Source: Chloroflexota bacterium
Lineage (GTDB): Bacteria > Chloroflexota > Anaerolineae > Anaerolineales > Villigracilaceae
Length of the DNA stretch: 64,000 nt
Direction: 5' to 3'
NCBI GenBank assembly: GCA_016213105.1
Contig: JACRBN010000026.1
Coordinates: 248,001-312,000, forward strand
This document shows positions 12,071-54,259 of this stretch, in pieces (the first letter of the stretch is position 1; each line of letters begins with the position of its first letter). Position numbers and translations under genes: made by a program. The notes under the pieces were generated by a model, which made no database searches, had not been told where the DNA came from, and saw only the letters and a list, made by a program, of their open reading frames with translations.

Positions 12071-14983
12071 TTATGGGGTGGGCAGGCTGAATGCCGCGAC
12101 CAGGAAAACGGACATTTGGTCGCGCAGGATGGTGGCAGACGGGCAGTAGTTGCCGCCGCCGCAGCCCCCGGTCACGCCTTCGGCGGCCAGTTGCTTGATC
12201 CAGGCCGCGGCCCAGTGACTGGTGGACACATCATTGAAACCGCTGGCGGCTCCCACGGCGGGCGGGGTATAGGTGTTGCCATACTTGGCGCGCAGCAGGA
12301 AGACGGCCATCTGATCGCGGGTGACAGGTTTGGTCGGGCAGTAATTGCCTCCACCGCAGCCGGCCGTGATGCCTTCGACGGCCAGTTGTTTGATCCAGGC
12401 GGCAGCCCAGTGATCGGTGGGCACATCGTTGAAGCCGGTAGCGGCGCCCACAGCCGGCGGGGTGTAGCCGGTGCCATACTTGGCCTTCAGCAGGAAGACG
12501 GCCATCTGGTCACGGGTGACCGCCGACAGCGGGCAGTAGCTGAGCGGGCTGCTGCCGCATCCGCCGCTGACACCGAACGCATAGAGCGACTCGATGTATT
12601 TCCAGGCCCAATGGTCCACCGGCACGTCGGCGAAGGTGGCGAAGTTGACGCTGGAGACCGTCAGCGTGCCGTCGATGTAGGAGGTAAAGCTGTAGTTGTC
12701 ATCCGAGCCGCCCGAGCAGGTGATCGGGTAGGCGCCCGGGGAGCCGTGCGGAACGGACACGATGCAGGTGGGGGCGGTGTCGAGCACGGCCGCGGTTTCG
12801 CCGTTCTGCAAACCGCTCAAGTCGAAGAGGAAGGCCGGGTCGGCCGCGCCGAAGGCCCGGGTCTGGCTGAGCGCGCTGACGACCAGGCCCGCCTTGTCCA
12901 CGCTCAACGTGCCGTCGACATAGGTGATTTCGTAGTTGCCGAGGCCCACCCCGAGGGCAGCGCTGGGCGTGATGTCGTAGCCGCCGACGTTGGCCGTATC
13001 GACTGCGCCGCTGCTGGTGAGGGTTACCAGGTTGACCCCGTCGTTGTTGATCAGGCCGCTGGCGGTGAATTCGTCGCCGTTGAAGGCGACCGTCTCACCG
13101 TAGGTCTTGACGGCGTTGTCGGCTGTGATGGTCAGATCCTTGGGGGCGACCGTCACGGCCCCGTTGATGTAGTTGAAGCCGTACTTGTCGTCGGATCCGC
13201 CGGAGCAGGATGAAGTGAAGGGGCTGGCGACGACCGTGAACGGACCGCTGACGCTGCAGGTGGGGAGCACATCCAGCACGGCCATGGTGTCGTTGTCGAT
13301 GAAGCCGTCATACGCGGGGCTGATGAGCGGGGCCGCGTCGCCGTAGGTGATGGCGGCGCTGGAGGCGCTCACGTTCAGCACCACCTTGTTCGAGATGGAA
13401 TAGGTGCCGTCCACGTAGCTAATGGTGTAGTTCGTCCCCGCATCGCCACCGGAACAGTTGATCGGGTAATCGCCCGCCGCAACGGGTGACCCGGTCACCG
13501 AGCAGGTCGGGACGACGGTGAAGGCATCCGGGGCGACGAAGCCGGTGGCCGTGAAATCGAAGGCCGGGGTCGGGCTGCCGAGGTAGACGGTCTTGTCGTT
13601 GGCGGTGACTTCCAGCGGGGCCGGGTCGATCGAGGCTGTGGTTGTCGGCGGGGTCAGGCTGTAGTTTCCGCTGGCCGACCCGCTGATGTTCAATCCCGTA
13701 ATTTGGACGGTCTTGCCCACGCCCGCATTGGCGTTGGGGCTGAAGGAGCCGGTCGCGCTGCCGGTGTTGAGCGTCACATTGCCGCCGTCCAGGTTGCCGA
13801 CCAGCGCGGCGCTGCCGGTATCGAGGCTGGCTGAGATGCTGCCATCGTAGGTTTTATTGCCGGCCGTGATGCCGCTGACCGTCAGGCTCCGCTTGTTCAC
13901 CACCTGTTGCATGGCCGGTGACGTGCTGGCCGCGAATGAGCCGTTCCCCACGAATTTGGCCGTGATTGAGTGCGGGGAGGTGGTGGCCGATAATTGGGTG
14001 GCCGGGGTGGTATAGGAAGCCACGCCGCCCGAGGTGACGCCGCTCCCAAGCAGGGTCACGCCATCGTAGAATTGAACGGTGACGCCATTGGTGGGGGTGG
14101 GGGAGACGGTGGCGGTAAAGGTCACGGCCGTGCCATAAGTGACTGCGCTGAGCGCATTCAACGTGATGGTCGTGGCGGGGAGGGCCGGGTTGAGCGTGGC
14201 CGCCACGACGCCCTTGCTCTGGCTGACCCCCCAGTTGAAGGTCGGGTTGGTAACGGTCGCGCTGCCGTAGGTCTTGCCGCCCTGGTACGAATAACTGCCA
14301 TTGGTCGAGAGCGGCGACAGGGCCGTCTGGATATAGCCAGGCTCCGACATGCCCGCGGCGAAATTCGCATCCGCGCTCATGGAGAAAAGGGCATAGCCGC
14401 CGGCGTTTACAGTGAGGAGATTCCCATAATTGAGGGTTGGGCTGCCTGCGCTGAAATTTTCCTGGAATTCGGTGATGGGCGCGGTTTGATCCACCCCCGC
14501 ATACGTGGACACGTAAATGTTGATCCCGTTCTGTGAACCGACGGCGGTGGGCAGGTTCGTGACGGTGACGCGCAGGTTGGTGTTTCCAGCCGCAGCGATG
14601 TCCGCTTCCTTCAGGTAGCCCATCCACGCGACCTGGCGCTGGGTGTCATCCGAGATGGAGATCTGGGTCAGGAGTTTTGGCGCGCTGCTGCCGTGTCCAT
14701 AGACGGCATAGACATTCAAACCTCCGCCCACGGGCAGGTTATTGCTGCCAAAATCCATCGCCACGACCATCAGGCGGTTGGAGCCGGGGGATACGACAAA
14801 GCTCGTGTCGTTGATTCCCGTCGTGCCCGACACGCTAGGGGTGTCCGCCCAGGCTTGCAGCACGGAGATTGTGCCAGCCGCATAAACCGGGTTGACTGGG
14901 ATGGCCGCCATGAACAATGCGGTGATCACCAACGCCGCAACGATGCGGTTCAAAACTCTCGACGCTAAAGGTTGAGTTTGCAT
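12071..14983 (-). CDS. Large S-layer-anchored protein: Ig-like and MBG/YDG repeats, three SLH domains
   Basis: A secreted protein of 970 aa. A signal peptide (cut near VYA-AGT) is followed by an N-terminal beta domain, a bacterial Ig-like domain (ITLNALSAVTYGTAVTFTAT), a YDG domain (NKTYDG) and about four MBG-type repeats ending in phrases such as INYVDGTLSV. Three SLH repeats close the protein (FADVPVDHWAWKYIE; then two with HWAAAWIKQLA). Each SLH repeat contains a GC...YCP cysteine pair. It is probably a cell-surface adhesin or S-layer component held by wall polymer. Start at 14983 is set by GAGGAAAAT upstream and a good signal peptide. Confidence 0.85.
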   Translation of the reverse strand: MQTQPLASRVLNRIVAALVITALFMAAIPVNPVYAAGTISVLQAWADTPSVSGTTGINDTSFVVSPGSNRLMVVAMDFGSNNLPVGGGLNVYAVYGHGSSAPKLLTQISISDDTQRQVAWMGYLKEADIAAAGNTNLRVTVTNLPTAVGSQNGINIYVSTYAGVDQTAPITEFQENFSAGSPTLNYGNLLTVNAGGYALFSMSADANFAAGMSEPGYIQTALSPLSTNGSYSYQGGKTYGSATVTNPTFNWGVSQSKGVVAATLNPALPATTITLNALSAVTYGTAVTFTATVSPTPTNGVTVQFYDGVTLLGSGVTSGGVASYTTPATQLSATTSPHSITAKFVGNGSFAASTSPAMQQVVNKRSLTVSGITAGNKTYDGSISASLDTGSAALVGNLDGGNVTLNTGSATGSFSPNANAGVGKTVQITGLNISGSASGNYSLTPPTTTASIDPAPLEVTANDKTVYLGSPTPAFDFTATGFVAPDAFTVVPTCSVTGSPVAAGDYPINCSGGDAGTNYTISYVDGTYSISNKVVLNVSASSAAITYGDAAPLISPAYDGFIDNDTMAVLDVLPTCSVSGPFTVVASPFTSSCSGGSDDKYGFNYINGAVTVAPKDLTITADNAVKTYGETVAFNGDEFTASGLINNDGVNLVTLTSSGAVDTANVGGYDITPSAALGVGLGNYEITYVDGTLSVDKAGLVVSALSQTRAFGAADPAFLFDLSGLQNGETAAVLDTAPTCIVSVPHGSPGAYPITCSGGSDDNYSFTSYIDGTLTVSSVNFATFADVPVDHWAWKYIESLYAFGVSGGCGSSPLSYCPLSAVTRDQMAVFLLKAKYGTGYTPPAVGAATGFNDVPTDHWAAAWIKQLAVEGITAGCGGGNYCPTKPVTRDQMAVFLLRAKYGNTYTPPAVGAASGFNDVSTSHWAAAWIKQLAAEGVTGGCGGGNYCPSATILRDQMSVFLVAAFSLPTP

Positions 14984-15141
14984 ATTTTCCTCTATGTTGT
15001 GACTGGATACAGGTAAATTCCCTTCCAGCAGGGCCAATAAAAGTGTTGACGGGGACTTGTCGTTTCGCCTCCTGCGAGGTCGCGGCCTGGGTGGGAATGC
15101 TCACGAAATAATCAAGGGTCGCTGTCCGCCGGGACCTTGCT

Positions 15142-15366: not shown

Positions 15367-15884
15367 GCTGTTTCTCCTGATTCTCTACCGTACAAAACCT
15401 GCGTTGGACGCGGATTATCGCAGATGTACGCGGATTTTCAGGGTGTTTTCTCCGCGTTTTCGGCGCTCGTCTGCGTCCTATTTCCAAAATGCACGGTAGA
15501 AAATCTCCTGACAATAAACGAAGGCGTGGTCAAGTATATTTCCAAAGCAAAAAGTATTTTTTGCCGACATAAAAATGCGCTTGCAGTTCTTCTTAAAAAG
15601 CTGGAACACCTCCCGAGCCGGATCTGGGGGAGTAATCCGTTTCGTAGATAAAAATGGTGAAAAATATCCAATTAAAACTGCACATAAAACGTCGGCCAAA
15701 AAATGCGCTCCGAAAACCGTTCAGATTTGCAAGGAGCTTGTTTCGATTGTAGCTATAACACAACCAGAGTCAAGGTGATTTTTGGGCCATTTTCCACCCC
15801 CCTCTACTACGGCCCATTTGCGGGGTTGACAATCCTGTAAAGCCAGGTTTCAGAACCGTTAGGTGAAAGGCATGAAAAGTGCTC
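15367..15884. other. Gene-free leader region
   Basis: No convincing gene. At about 15400-15480 there is a GCGGATT/CGCAGATGTACGCGG/TCTCCGCG-rich stretch resembling degraded dispersed repeat DNA. From 15480 to 15780 the sequence is AT-richer than its surroundings. Small frames here lack ribosome-binding sites and family features. Confidence 0.5.
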
Positions 15885-15890
15885 TATAAT
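15885..15890 (+). promoter_or_regulatory. -10 box upstream of the riboswitch leader
   Basis: A consensus TATAAT ends about 15 bp before the first aptamer, so transcription starting near 15897 would include both aptamers. No good -35 at 17 bp spacing is seen. Confidence 0.5.
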
Positions 15891-15905
15891 GCCTCGTATT
15901 CATCA

Positions 15906-15993
15906 ACCGAAAAGGCAAACCCGGCGAAAGCCGGGGGCGCAAAGCCAATGGGTCTACCGCCGCGCAAGCGGCCACGATTGCCAGGCCGCCGAA
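15906..15993 (+). promoter_or_regulatory. c-di-GMP-I (GEMM-I) riboswitch aptamer, copy 1
   Basis: Matches the GEMM-I consensus: AAAAGGCAAACC, a stem capped by a GAAA tetraloop (CGGCGAAAGCCG), the joining GCGCAAAGCCAATGGG, a second stem closed by GCAA (CCGCGCAAGCGG), and the closing TTGCCAGGCCGCCG. This class binds cyclic di-GMP. It is followed within 25 nt by a terminator hairpin with eight T, so this copy probably controls transcription. Confidence 0.9.
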
Positions 15994-16015
15994 TTCCATC
16001 ACAGCCTTCCTTGCA

Positions 16016-16048
16016 GCGAACCTGGCATGTTTATGGTTCGTTTTTTTT
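16016..16048 (+). terminator. Intrinsic terminator between the two aptamers
   Basis: CGAACC (16017-16022) pairs with GGTTCG (16035-16040) and is followed by eight T. It sits in the expression platform of the first riboswitch and before the second. Confidence 0.75.
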
Positions 16049-16075
16049 GTTTCGTTTTGTATTTTCCAATCGTAA

Positions 16076-16162
16076 CGACAAGGGCAAACCCGGCGAAAGC
16101 CGGCGACGCAAAGCCAACGGGTCTACCGCCACGCAAGTGGCCAGGATGGCCGGGCCGCCGAA
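16076..16162 (+). promoter_or_regulatory. c-di-GMP-I (GEMM-I) riboswitch aptamer, copy 2
   Basis: Closely similar to copy 1: AGGGCAAACC, CGGCGAAAGCCG stem-loop, GACGCAAAGCCAACGGG, CCAC-GCAA-GTGG stem, then GGATGGCCGGGCCGCCG. Between it and the start codon there is no T-rich terminator, only short GC hairpins near 16169-16206 before the ribosome-binding site at 16213-16218. This copy may act on translation instead. Confidence 0.9.
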
Positions 16163-16224
16163 AACGACGCGCGGAGTATCGCGCCACGGTGTGCATCTTT
16201 GGGTGCCCTTGTCAGGAGATGACA

Positions 16225-17907
16225 ATGGCGCCCAAATTTTTTTCCAGGCTGGCAGGTGTTGCAACCCTTATCGCCATTTGCGCGGCGGCCCTGCCCGCCC
16301 CTGTATTTGCATCCACGCCCGCCGCCGACCCGCTCAGGGAACATACCCTCAAGTACTATCTGGACCCCGCCCTCGTGCCCGACATGGCTTTCGCCGGGAG
16401 CGCGCTGGTCAAATACACGGAAGACCTGAACTTTGTGCTGGCCAAGAATACGAATCTCCGCCTGGTCTTTAATCCTGAAACGGACATCATCCTGACCACG
16501 GCCCAACCCCACTCCAACCGGGCCGTCCCGCCCCTGCCGGTCGATGACTTCGAGATCTGGGCGCACGCCGTGCATACCGACTTCCCCGTTTCCCACGGAG
16601 GCTACGCCGGCCTGGACGACAGCGGAGCGGGCGTGCTGGCCGGCCTGAAATGGACGCGCCTGTACGATCCCGACCAGTTGACTTCCAGCGAGTTGCTGGA
16701 CTACTGGACGCAGATCAACAACATGCTGCACGAACTGGCGCACGTGTTCGGGGCGGGGATGGGGGAATATTACAGCCTGTTGACCATCCAGGATACGACC
16801 GCGATCCAGCCCCAACTCAACATCAATATTTACGATGAAGATGACCCGTTCTGGAGCGACAAACCCGATTTCAAAGTTGACCCGCTCCTGTGGAATTTGG
16901 CCCAGACGGGCAATCCAGGCCCGGGCTCCGACCGCGAAAAGCTGCTGGCCCTGACGCAATTTTCCACGCTGACGGCAACGATCCTCAGCAACGAGTACCG
17001 CAACGCGGCGCCCATGCTCGACCTCGAAAACATCCGCGTCAAGGTCCTATCCGCGGAGGGGCTGCCCCTCGCAGGCGCGAACGTCAAGGTCTGGAGCGTG
17101 GTCGGCAGTTCCCCATACGAGACGGACTTGCTGGCAGACACCCTCACGACCGCCGACGGACAGGCCGCCTTTGCCTGGGGCGGAGCGGCCAACCCGCACA
17201 ACAGCTACGATTTCCTGCGCCTGGTCAAGGTCTACCTGGACGGTTACATCCCATCAGCGCGCTACGTCTCCATCTTCGACGCCGATATTGCGCGATTGGT
17301 GAACGGAAGCGAAACCCTGGAGATCACCATCCAGTTGAGCGCGGCCCCGCCCGTTTCCAGCTTTGCCGATGTCCCCACCGATCATTTCGCCTGGCCGTTC
17401 ATCGAGCGATTGTATGCGGCTGGCATTACCGGCGGATGTTCCAGCGCGCCCCTGCAATATTGCCCAAACCAGGTTGTGACCCGCGCCCAGATGGCCGTCT
17501 TCATCGAGCGCGGCTGGAAGGGCGCGGCGTTTACCCCGCCATCCGTCCCGCCCACCTTTGGAGATATCTCCGGCCACTGGGCGCGCAACTGGATCGAGGC
17601 CCTGGCCGCGGATCAGGTGACCAGCGGCTGCGGCGATGGCAATTACTGCCCCGACGCCCCGGTCGACCGGGCGCAAATGGCGGTCTTCCTGCTGAGGGCC
17701 ATCCACGGCAGCGCCTACGTGCCCGCTCCCGCCACGGGCGCCATCTTCGCGGACGTGCCCGCTGATCACTGGGCGGCCGCCTGGATCGAACAGCTTGCTG
17801 CGGAAGGGATCACGGGAGGCTGCGGCGGCGGGAAATATTGCCCCGCTCAACCGGTCACCCGCGCGCAGATGAGTGCATTTCTGGTAACAACGTTTGCATT
17901 GCCATAA
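16225..17907 (+). CDS. SLH-anchored surface protein with metalloprotease-like HELAH motif
   Basis: A protein of 560 aa. A signal peptide (cut near VFA-STP) is followed by a domain of about 300 residues containing HELAHVFGAGMGE at residues 169-181, a zincin HExxH motif. The residue where metzincins carry their third ligand is Met 179, so zinc binding may use Glu 181 or be lost. A beta-rich domain comes next, then three SLH repeats (FADVPTDHFAWPFIE; FGDISGHWARNWIE; FADVPADHWAAAWIE), each with a GC...YCP cysteine pair. Start at 16225 is favoured over 16219 because AGGAG is then 6 nt upstream. Expression is placed under two c-di-GMP riboswitches. Confidence 0.83.
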   Translation: MAPKFFSRLAGVATLIAICAAALPAPVFASTPAADPLREHTLKYYLDPALVPDMAFAGSALVKYTEDLNFVLAKNTNLRLVFNPETDIILTTAQPHSNRAVPPLPVDDFEIWAHAVHTDFPVSHGGYAGLDDSGAGVLAGLKWTRLYDPDQLTSSELLDYWTQINNMLHELAHVFGAGMGEYYSLLTIQDTTAIQPQLNINIYDEDDPFWSDKPDFKVDPLLWNLAQTGNPGPGSDREKLLALTQFSTLTATILSNEYRNAAPMLDLENIRVKVLSAEGLPLAGANVKVWSVVGSSPYETDLLADTLTTADGQAAFAWGGAANPHNSYDFLRLVKVYLDGYIPSARYVSIFDADIARLVNGSETLEITIQLSAAPPVSSFADVPTDHFAWPFIERLYAAGITGGCSSAPLQYCPNQVVTRAQMAVFIERGWKGAAFTPPSVPPTFGDISGHWARNWIEALAADQVTSGCGDGNYCPDAPVDRAQMAVFLLRAIHGSAYVPAPATGAIFADVPADHWAAAWIEQLAAEGITGGCGGGKYCPAQPVTRAQMSAFLVTTFALP

Positions 17908-50831: not shown

Positions 50832-51746
50832 ATGCAAGGAAAACTGCCCGAGAGTGAGTTTCACAAGCAGCTAATCGACAATCTCTATGATGGGGTGTAC
50901 TTCGTTGACACCGAGCGCCGCATCACCTACTGGAACAAAGGTGCGGAGCGTATTACCGGTTACCTGTCCGAAATGGTCGTGGGGACCTTCTGCAATCAGA
51001 ACCTGCTCAATCACATCACCGACAACGGAAAACTCCTGTGCGAAGACGGCTGTCCCCTGCTGGATACCCTGCACGACGGCAACCTGCGCGAGGCCGAGGT
51101 GCATCTGCGCCACGCCGAGGGCCACCGCGTGCCGGTCCTGATCCGCACCACGCCCATCCTGGACGACAACCAAACCATCGTCGGCGCGGTGGAGGTGTTC
51201 AGCAACAACCAGTCGCTGTTCAGCATCCGCCGCAAGGTTACGGAACTGGAGAAGAAGGCCTTTTACGATGCGCTGACGGGGCTGGCCAACCGCGCCTACA
51301 CGGAAATGAAACTCAAGGCCGCCGCCGTGGAATACCACCAGCACAAGCTGCCCTTCGGCCTGCTGTTCATCGACGTGGACCACTTCAAAGCCATCAACGA
51401 TACCTTCGGGCACGAGGCGGGCGACAAGGTCCTGCAAACCATTGCCAGGAACCTGTCCCTGCACCTGCGCGAGACGGATACCTGCGGGCGCTGGGGCGGC
51501 GAGGAGTTCGTGGTGATCGCCATGAACGTGGACGAACGCCGCCTGCGCCTGATCGCCGAAAAGGTGCGCGCCATGATCGCCAATTCGATGATCAAGCTGG
51601 GCGAGCGCAACCTGCGCGTCACCGTCTCCATCGGCGCGACCCTGGTCCACAACGACGACGATCCCGTCACCCTCATCCAGCGCGCCGACGGCCTGATGTA
51701 TCAAAGCAAACAGAACGGCAGGAACCTGGTCACGCTCGAGGCGTGA
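50832..51746 (+). CDS. PAS-GGDEF diguanylate cyclase
   Basis: A protein of 304 aa with one PAS domain (LIDNLYDGVYFVDTERRITY; GAERITGYLSEMVVG) that contains three cysteines (CNQN, CEDGC) and a GGDEF domain with LLFIDVDHFKAINDTFGH and active-site GGEEF. RETD lies exactly five residues before the active site, forming the RxxD inhibitory site. It should make c-di-GMP from two GTP and be feedback-inhibited. Cytoplasmic, no membrane segment. Start at 50832 chosen as the ATG just before the PAS fold. Confidence 0.92.
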   Translation: MQGKLPESEFHKQLIDNLYDGVYFVDTERRITYWNKGAERITGYLSEMVVGTFCNQNLLNHITDNGKLLCEDGCPLLDTLHDGNLREAEVHLRHAEGHRVPVLIRTTPILDDNQTIVGAVEVFSNNQSLFSIRRKVTELEKKAFYDALTGLANRAYTEMKLKAAAVEYHQHKLPFGLLFIDVDHFKAINDTFGHEAGDKVLQTIARNLSLHLRETDTCGRWGGEEFVVIAMNVDERRLRLIAEKVRAMIANSMIKLGERNLRVTVSIGATLVHNDDDPVTLIQRADGLMYQSKQNGRNLVTLEA

Positions 51747-52444: not shown

Positions 52445-54259
52445 ATGAAAAGGAAACATAGGATCAGTCCGCCGGATGCTGTACTGCGCTCTCCGACAGA
52501 GGCAGATACGGGGGGGCCTGATGAGAATCATGATGGAGTTCATCGGCCGGCAGAGATTGAGGACGGGCGCTTCATCCACGAACTGGCGGAATACCAGATC
52601 GAGTTGGAAGCACAAAAGCATGAGTTGATGAAATCACGGGTGGAGTTGGAAGCGGCTTATCGCCAATTTACCGATCTGTACGATTTTGCCCCGGTGGGCT
52701 ACTTTGTCCTGGGGCAGGATGGCGTGGTGCTGAACGTCAACCTGGCCGGGGCGAACCTGCTGGGGGTGGAGCGTGACAACTTACTCCGTCAGCGCCTCGG
52801 GCTGTTCCTGCCGGACGAATCCCGCCCTGCCTTTCAGGCCTTTCTCGAAAAACTGCTGGATGGGGAGGGCAAGGCAACCTGCGAGTTGATGTTCCTGAAA
52901 GAGGGGGATGGGGAGTTCTGGACGCACATCGAAGCCTCCTGTTTCGAGGGCGGGACGGAATGCCGCGCCGTGTTGACCGATATCACCGAGCGCAAGCGCA
53001 TGGAACAGGCCCTGCAGGAGAGCGAGAACCGCTTTCGCTCCATGCTGCGGAACGTGCCGAACATCGCCATCCAGGGGTATGCCATGGACGGCACCACCCA
53101 GTATTGGAACCAGGCCTCGGAGAACTTGTATGGGTATACCGTCGGGGAGGCCATCGGGCGCAGCCTGCTGGATTTGATCATCCCGCCCGAGATGCGCGCG
53201 GAGGTCCGTCAGGCCATCCAGCACATGGCTGAGAGCGGGCAGCCCCTCCCGGCCGAGGAACTGTCCCTGATGCGCAAGGACGGCACGCGCGTGACGGTCT
53301 ATTCGAGTCACGCGGTGGTGTCCGCCCCCGGACGTCCGCCGGAATTATTCTGCCTGGATGTCGACCTGTCCGAGCGCAAGCGGATGGAGGAGGCTCTGCG
53401 GGAAAGCGAATGGCGCAACCGCATCGTCTCCGAGCTGACCACGGATTACATCTTTGTCGTGGACGTTGAAAAGGATGGCGGCCTAAAACTGCGCTGGGCC
53501 TCGGACAATATGCTGCGCCTGACGGGGCGGACGGTCGCGGATGCGGCCACCTCCGAATTGTGGGGCAACATCATTCACCCGGACGACGCGGAGCGTTTCT
53601 TCGGCTTTGCACAACAGATCCTGTCCACGGGGGAGGCGGGCGAACTGGAATGCAGGACCTTCCACAAGCAGGGAAATGAACGCTGGATACGCATCTTTGC
53701 GCGCCCGCAGGCGGGCGATGGGGGCCGCGTTGCCACCATCGTTGGCGCTATCAAGGACATCACCGAGCGCAGGCGGGCGGAGGAGGAACTGCGCTACCTG
53801 GGCACGCACGATGCCTTGACCGGCCTGTATAACCGCAGCTTTTTCGAAGAAGAGGTGACTCGCCTCGAACGCGGACGCGAGTTCCCGGTCAGCATTGTCA
53901 TGGCCGATGTGGACCATTTGAAGATCACGAACGACCGGGACGGCCACGCTGCCGGGGATGAAATACTCAGGCGCGCCGCGTATGTGCTGGTGGCCGCCTT
54001 CCGCGCCGAGGACGTGATCGCGCGCATCGGCGGGGATGAATTTGCCGTGCTCCTGCCTGCCACCGATGCGGCTGCCGCGGAGTTGTCCCTGCAGCGGGTG
54101 CGGCAGTTGGTCGCGGAGAACAACGCGGGGCGCTTTGGCCCCGCGCTGCGCCTTTCGCTGGGGGCGAGCACGGCCGGACATTCCGTATCCCTGACGAGCG
54201 CGCTCCAGGAGGCGGATACCCGCATGTATCGCGATAAAAGAGGCGAAAATTCCATGTAA
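52445..54259 (+). CDS. Multi-PAS diguanylate cyclase
   Basis: A protein of 604 aa: an N-terminal helix (HELAEYQIELEAQKHELMKS), three PAS domains (about residues 75-180, 185-310, 320-440), each closed by ITERKRMEQAL-like linkers, then a GGDEF domain with THDALTGLYNRSFFEEE, MADVDHLKITNDRDGHAAGD and active-site GGDEF. RAED five residues earlier is the RxxD inhibitory site. It should synthesise c-di-GMP in response to an internal signal. No membrane segments. GGGAG precedes the ATG. The next gene encodes a matching phosphodiesterase. Confidence 0.92.
   Translation: MKRKHRISPPDAVLRSPTEADTGGPDENHDGVHRPAEIEDGRFIHELAEYQIELEAQKHELMKSRVELEAAYRQFTDLYDFAPVGYFVLGQDGVVLNVNLAGANLLGVERDNLLRQRLGLFLPDESRPAFQAFLEKLLDGEGKATCELMFLKEGDGEFWTHIEASCFEGGTECRAVLTDITERKRMEQALQESENRFRSMLRNVPNIAIQGYAMDGTTQYWNQASENLYGYTVGEAIGRSLLDLIIPPEMRAEVRQAIQHMAESGQPLPAEELSLMRKDGTRVTVYSSHAVVSAPGRPPELFCLDVDLSERKRMEEALRESEWRNRIVSELTTDYIFVVDVEKDGGLKLRWASDNMLRLTGRTVADAATSELWGNIIHPDDAERFFGFAQQILSTGEAGELECRTFHKQGNERWIRIFARPQAGDGGRVATIVGAIKDITERRRAEEELRYLGTHDALTGLYNRSFFEEEVTRLERGREFPVSIVMADVDHLKITNDRDGHAAGDEILRRAAYVLVAAFRAEDVIARIGGDEFAVLLPATDAAAAELSLQRVRQLVAENNAGRFGPALRLSLGASTAGHSVSLTSALQEADTRMYRDKRGENSM

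Follow-up and report, generated by a model that had tools for sequence, protein, structure and literature searches.

Organization of the leader and its gene

The window, by which we mean the whole stretch of 64,000 nucleotides that was analysed, carries on its forward strand a leader in which two c-di-GMP-I (GEMM-I) aptamers precede the gene of a secreted protein with surface-layer homology (SLH) repeats. The features of the leader and gene are as follows:

15863–15890, + strand: sigma-70-like promoter, GTGAAA-16-TATAAT, matching 10 of 12 consensus positions
15905–15994, + strand: c-di-GMP-I aptamer 1, position 20 = G (Rfam covariance models)
15979–15985, + strand: TGCCAGG, 3′ strand of aptamer 1, with a predicted antiterminator partner CCTGGCA at 16021–16027 (sequence)
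16015–16048, + strand: predicted intrinsic terminator, 8-bp stem 16015–16022/16035–16042, 12-nt loop, T tract to 16048 (sequence and fold)
16073–16162, + strand: c-di-GMP-I aptamer 2, position 20 = G (Rfam covariance models)
16077–16086, + strand: S1, GACAAGGGCA, ligand-binding 5′ strand of aptamer 2
16198–16236, + strand: 16-bp start-codon hairpin, arms 16198–16214/16220–16236, one C·U mismatch, −25.4 kcal/mol (folding)
16204–16213, + strand: S2, TGCCCTTGTC, perfect complement of S1, also within the 5′ arm of the start-codon hairpin
16214–16218, + strand: Shine–Dalgarno sequence AGGAG, with the ATG at 16225 (sequence)
16225–17907, + strand: 560-aa secreted protein, putative metallopeptidase, SLH repeats at the C-terminus

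An Rfam scan of the window returned exactly two GEMM-I aptamers, and the 5.4-Mb genome holds only one further match. Against RF01051, for which the gathering cut-off is 35 bits, aptamer 1 scores 70.2 bits and aptamer 2 scores 68.2 bits (E = 3e-11), bearing out the two intact aptamers that an earlier, sequence-only reading of this DNA had described. The scan listed aptamer 2 under RF01051 and aptamer 1 under the clan sister RF03167 (c-di-GMP-I-GGC; 66.0 bits, gathering cut-off 59, E = 2e-13), which apparently reflects ranking within the clan, even though RF01051 gives aptamer 1 the higher bit score. That the GGC subfamily label might denote another ligand was ruled out by this higher score and by the G at position 20. 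This ligand-contact position is G in both window aptamers, and we take c-di-GMP to be the ligand of both putative sensors. Zero-linker triplets in relatives had raised the idea of a further, degenerate aptamer within the 78-nt spacer; Rfam gave no match there.

Transcription is predicted to start at about 15897, just 5′ of aptamer 1; the feature had previously been drawn from 15885, which takes in the −10 box and not only RNA. A promoter scan of the + strand found no second promoter between the aptamers. Since the only predicted promoter lies upstream of aptamer 1, both aptamers are most likely carried on one mRNA, so that two complete aptamers of the same class share one leader behind a single promoter.

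A predicted terminator between the aptamers

The inter-aptamer hairpin has the sequence AGCGAACC-12 nt-GGTTCGTT and is followed by eight T ending at 16048, so that by sequence and fold the first platform is a predicted intrinsic terminator. A simple terminator scan, which allowed loops of at most 8 nt, passed over this hairpin with its 12-nt loop. The 5′ side of the terminator is complementary to the 3′ strand of the aptamer, which makes this pairing a candidate antiterminator that ligand would break, and for that reason an OFF switch is predicted. With ligand bound, aptamer 1 would keep its own 3′ strand GCCAGG, the CGAACC/GGTTCG hairpin with its T8 tail would form and polymerase would halt; without ligand, GCCAGG would pair with CCTGGC in the 5′ side of the terminator and polymerase would continue.

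Taken alone, the window antiterminator is not significant (6/8 pairs, p = 0.88), and the call is made because of the family pattern instead. All 31 tandem spacers that were parsed have a terminator-like hairpin with a T-rich tail 3′ of the first aptamer, and in 28 of these 31 loci the aptamer 3′ strand has its complement in the 5′ arm of the terminator, with compensatory antiterminator variants among them (GCCAAGCC/GGCTTGGC and GCCAGACC/GGTCTGG). With its 8-bp stem and 12-nt loop, the window terminator is shorter than is usual in the group, and it stands at the weak end of the 31-locus set.

A start-codon hairpin and a proposed strand exchange after the second aptamer

The window leader shows no T-tailed hairpin 3′ of aptamer 2, which instead precedes the Shine–Dalgarno sequence; both this arrangement and the eight-T hairpin after aptamer 1 are as originally noted. 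S2 lies just 5′ of the Shine–Dalgarno sequence and has two possible partners. It can pair with S1 (p = 0.006 in the window), and it can pair with the start region, S3, to form the start-codon hairpin that holds GGAGA in its loop and the AUG in its stem. The likeness of S3 to S1 comes from the Met-Ala codons (AUGGCx), which mimic the conserved xGGCA of the aptamer. We propose this strand exchange of S2 between S1 and S3, new here, as the second expression platform, a predicted gate on the ribosome-binding site made of alternative pairings that covary (see below).

With ligand bound, aptamer 2 would keep S1, leaving S2 free to pair with S3 and hide the GGAG and AUG; without ligand, S2 would pair with S1 once transcribed and the start region would remain open. 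S1 would thus be out of reach throughout in the presence of ligand, while in its absence the start region would be open for a limited time. Folding of the window transcripts points to the same order: RNAs ending 5′ of the AUG form S1:S2 with probability 1.0, and in the full-length RNA at equilibrium the start-codon hairpin beats S1:S2. An ON state that follows from equilibrium folding alone is not predicted for the window. Because the start-codon hairpin is favoured at equilibrium, the ON state of the window requires kinetics, and given the strength of this hairpin the second stage would be decided co-transcriptionally or during ribosome loading. The OFF sign and the order of events are our reading of these sequences and folds.

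Covariation of S1, S2 and S3

The alternative pairings were examined across 38 leaders, in each of which S2 was located by complementarity to the start region only and the match to S1 was asked afterwards; the S1:S2 register was thus fixed by S2:S3 and not picked to favour S1:S2. The S2:S3 hairpin is complete (7/7) in 31 of the 38 leaders, and 24 of the 38 loci have an S1:S2 match with p < 0.05 relative to dinucleotide shuffles. Pair counts were taken over 27 loci, with three shifted-register loci set by hand, and with the genus that has no S1:S2 and L040 left out. Over these loci S1:S2 is paired at 82%, compared with 35–44% when slid by 1–3 columns, and S2:S3 is paired at 95% with 26 double changes. 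The column 9–31, which corresponds to aptamer nt 19, is occupied by AU in 15 loci, GC in nine and UA in two, with one locus unpaired. This diagnostic S2 base is Watson–Crick to the aptamer in 26/27 loci (permutation p < 1e-5, the loci being related and not independent) and matches the start-codon U in only 3/27, so the diagnostic column is not explained by the start codon. Together, the pair counts and covariation suggest that both alternative pairings are under selection. Leaders with only a terminator provide a control: S1 runs of 8 are reached in 9/21 of them as well, and runs of at least 9 in 2/21 as against 21/38 leaders (Fisher p = 0.0005, with related rather than independent loci).

S1:S2 is absent in ten loci of one genus and in L040 and L046, so the exact strand exchange is not universal. 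The ten loci (L074, L078, L153–L157, L163, L165 and L166) keep the S2:S3 start-codon hairpin, and by eye the aptamer 3′ flank GAGCCUCCA seems complementary to UGGAUGCUC, competing in place of S1. L179, from a second family of the order, retains a 9-bp S1:S2 pairing, and by eye its S3 has apparently moved onto the Shine–Dalgarno sequence.

Recurrence in relatives and genome setting

Orthologs of the 560-aa protein came from metagenome-assembled genomes of Chloroflexota/Anaerolineales, and GEMM-I lies upstream in 8/8 of the loci found, in two or three copies in 7/8 (two each in the window, G008, G086, G135, G083 and L126, three in G001 and one in G024; the G086 and G135 loci are near-identical). 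A search of 298 genomes of the class turned up this protein family only in the family to which the window belongs. An unrelated secreted family from the same bacteria, sortase-like by a weak PF04203 match below the curated cut-off, is preceded by this layout at most of the loci looked at. The switch of S1, S2 and S3 itself is seen 5′ of this family and of zincin orthologs in other Anaerolineales. Among the tandem leaders analysed, the first aptamer has the terminator behind it and the last one the start-codon hairpin. Among 61 genomes, made up of 60 relatives and the one that holds the window, 38 have GEMM-I hits, many of them in arrays. With its recurrence in dozens of relatives, the two-step layout looks like a real, selected control device.

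The window's own genome has 22 GGDEF matches, and these together with its further GEMM-I aptamer indicate that c-di-GMP signalling is probably present. Two GGDEF domains of the diguanylate cyclase type lie inside the window itself, at 51258–51725 and 53804–54247. The genome's only other GEMM-I, at L033:906–1547, has a terminator-type leader followed by a 133-aa exported protein, and similar proteins stand behind single aptamers in several genera.

Interpretation and alternative readings

On this evidence we consider it probable that the locus is a bi-mechanism tandem c-di-GMP-I riboswitch of OFF/OFF type that silences a secreted, SLH-anchored putative metallopeptidase at high levels of the biofilm signal c-di-GMP. 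The suggestion from the sequence-only reading that two controls of different type act on one mRNA has gained strong support from the anatomy and its conservation. A wider reading, to which we would give about an even chance, is that this is an Anaerolineales-wide device: c-di-GMP-I OFF switches of transcription and then of translation in one leader, with opening codons that mimic the ligand-binding strand so that one short strand senses occupancy, placed on two unrelated surface-processing enzymes (the putative zincin and the sortase-like family) and blocking surface remodelling at high c-di-GMP, with an altered specificity position in the first sensor at many loci, the window not among them.

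A simpler alternative holds that the tandem is pseudo-cooperative or redundant, the two aptamers being alike and the start-codon hairpin a constitutive damper unlinked to aptamer 2. Tandem c-di-GMP-I arrays are indeed common (347 doublets and 12 triplets; PMC9481103), the window hairpin is stable regardless of aptamer 2, and copies within an array are 87% alike compared with 76–79% between loci, as recent duplication or conversion would yield. However, such a damper does not account for the covariation of S2 with the aptamer strand at a column that the hairpin leaves unconstrained (26/27), nor for the consistent division of terminator and start-codon hairpin between first and last aptamers, and we regard this alternative as unlikely. 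That one or both stages could be ON switches, like B. thuringiensis Bc3-5 in which the terminator forms without ligand, has precedent in that class I riboswitches are known with both signs (PMC4759541; PMC11477304), but it is very unlikely in our leader: the aptamer 3′ strand can pair with the 5′ side of a terminator that forms a hairpin of its own, and ligand would lock S1, so that both the antiterminator and the S1:S2 pairing predict OFF.

It is most improbable that the two window aptamers read different signals, the first one responding to a different cyclic dinucleotide or over a different concentration range. At position 20, 18 loci have G in the first aptamer, 10 have A and 4 have C, while the last aptamer has G in 35/38, and G or A at this position distinguishes c-di-GMP from c-AMP-GMP (PMC9481103); yet the window aptamers both have G and score alike, and the G of the last aptamer may be forced merely by S1:S2 pairing. 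The variation in the first, terminator-bearing aptamer may itself mean a different specificity or affinity, or only a pairing constraint on S1.

For the OFF/OFF tandem favoured here, theory makes it plausible that the response is sharper or has two levels (PMC9481103), and its biological role would be to keep surface proteolysis off in the sessile state.

The downstream protein

The 560-aa protein carries the motif HExxHxxGxxxGE, in which H169, E170, H173 and E181 are invariant in 6–7 orthologs and E181 would be the third zinc ligand; at the level of sequence, a conserved HExxH zinc site with a putative third ligand, as expected of a zincin, is present. We call the protein a putative peptidase because of this HExxH...E motif. 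A Pfam search of the protein gave SLH only and no peptidase family, and a family assignment could be obtained neither through Pfam, NCBIfam or PDB sequences nor through AlphaFold2 (AF2) plus Foldseek. The AF2 model is of modest quality (pLDDT 64.5); small beta-sandwich (transthyretin-like) domains, which cover a minor part of the model, make up most of its leading PDB fold matches, and no zincin is among the fold matches listed for it. In two of six aligned orthologs the C-terminus is different and not SLH, so the N-terminal domain and the riboswitch form the conserved unit and the anchor does not. The earlier description as an SLH protein with a zincin-like motif therefore stands for the motif and the SLH domains of the window protein, with the catalytic fold unconfirmed and SLH missing in those two orthologs. 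On the opposite strand, the neighbouring gene at 12071–15037 codes for a surface protein of 988 aa, MBG/YDG/Ig-like and with SLH repeats, on which the putative protease might act.

Comparison with known systems

c-di-GMP-I is the commonest tandem riboswitch class (PMC9481103), and riboswitches arranged in tandem show an enrichment for the c-di-GMP type (PMC12452182). Bi-mechanism tandems have been described for SAM-II/SAM-V and some SAM-II pairs, and the review that lists them gives c-di-GMP-I tandems only as pseudo-cooperative, their platforms not having been comprehensively evaluated there (PMC9481103). A literature search that had most subscription papers outside its reach found no report of a c-di-GMP-I bi-mechanism tandem. 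The SAM-II/SAM-V pair resembles the present leader in that two complete riboswitches with one common ligand follow each other, the first with a terminator after it and the second adjoining the ribosome-binding site, both predicted to be OFF (PMC9481103). It differs in ligand and RNA class, whereas here both sensors are of one class and close copies, and the second is predicted to exchange its ligand-binding strand with the start codon.

Among class I systems, the B. thuringiensis triple-tandem Bc3-5 likewise has tandem aptamers each with its own platform, but all three are terminators that switch ON and none is translational (PMC4759541). In B. thuringiensis Bc1, transcription and translation are both affected downstream of a class I aptamer; a single aptamer there has a long platform and regulates incoherently, unlike the two aptamers with one level each proposed here (PMC11218506). 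The suggested convergence with the C. difficile PPEP-1 riboswitch, where c-di-GMP represses a secreted cell-surface metalloprotease (PMC11477304), agrees in the kind of target and in the OFF sign, which is predicted for our locus. The likeness does not extend to the protein, since a PDB sequence search covering PPEP-1 and any solved structure gave no homolog, its sole match at E ≤ 10 being due to chance, and PPEP-1 is a sequence-unrelated protein with known substrates under a single transcriptional riboswitch (PMC11477304).

If our reading is right, bi-mechanism tandem control, so far listed for SAM, would extend to the commonest tandem riboswitch class. Translational control by c-di-GMP-I would also gain a concrete model of strand exchange that brings its own mutational tests. 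Surface proteases and sortase-like enzymes, both repressed by c-di-GMP, are further predicted to form a shared regulon in Chloroflexota, a phylum with little known on c-di-GMP riboswitches, parallel to PPEP-1 via unrelated proteins.

Other GEMM-I arrangements in relatives

Single GEMM-I aptamers in relatives (L063, L076, L086, L092 and L049) lie 5′ of beta-helix surface proteins and secreted proteases of the trypsin, subtilase and M6 immune-inhibitor-A-like types, and these targets may make up a c-di-GMP regulon of exported enzymes. Linker-less GEMM-I triplets are found in many genera (L035:581–834, L047, L052, L059, L075, L081, L090, L042, L057 and L071), with a terminator directly 3′ that the three copies share; the middle copy is usually divergent and mostly has A at position 20. 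Downstream of such a triplet, four loci have ruvB, which in some is separated from the triplet by a TATAAT-like box of its own, and the linker-less triplet is possibly a free-standing c-di-GMP-sensing RNA.
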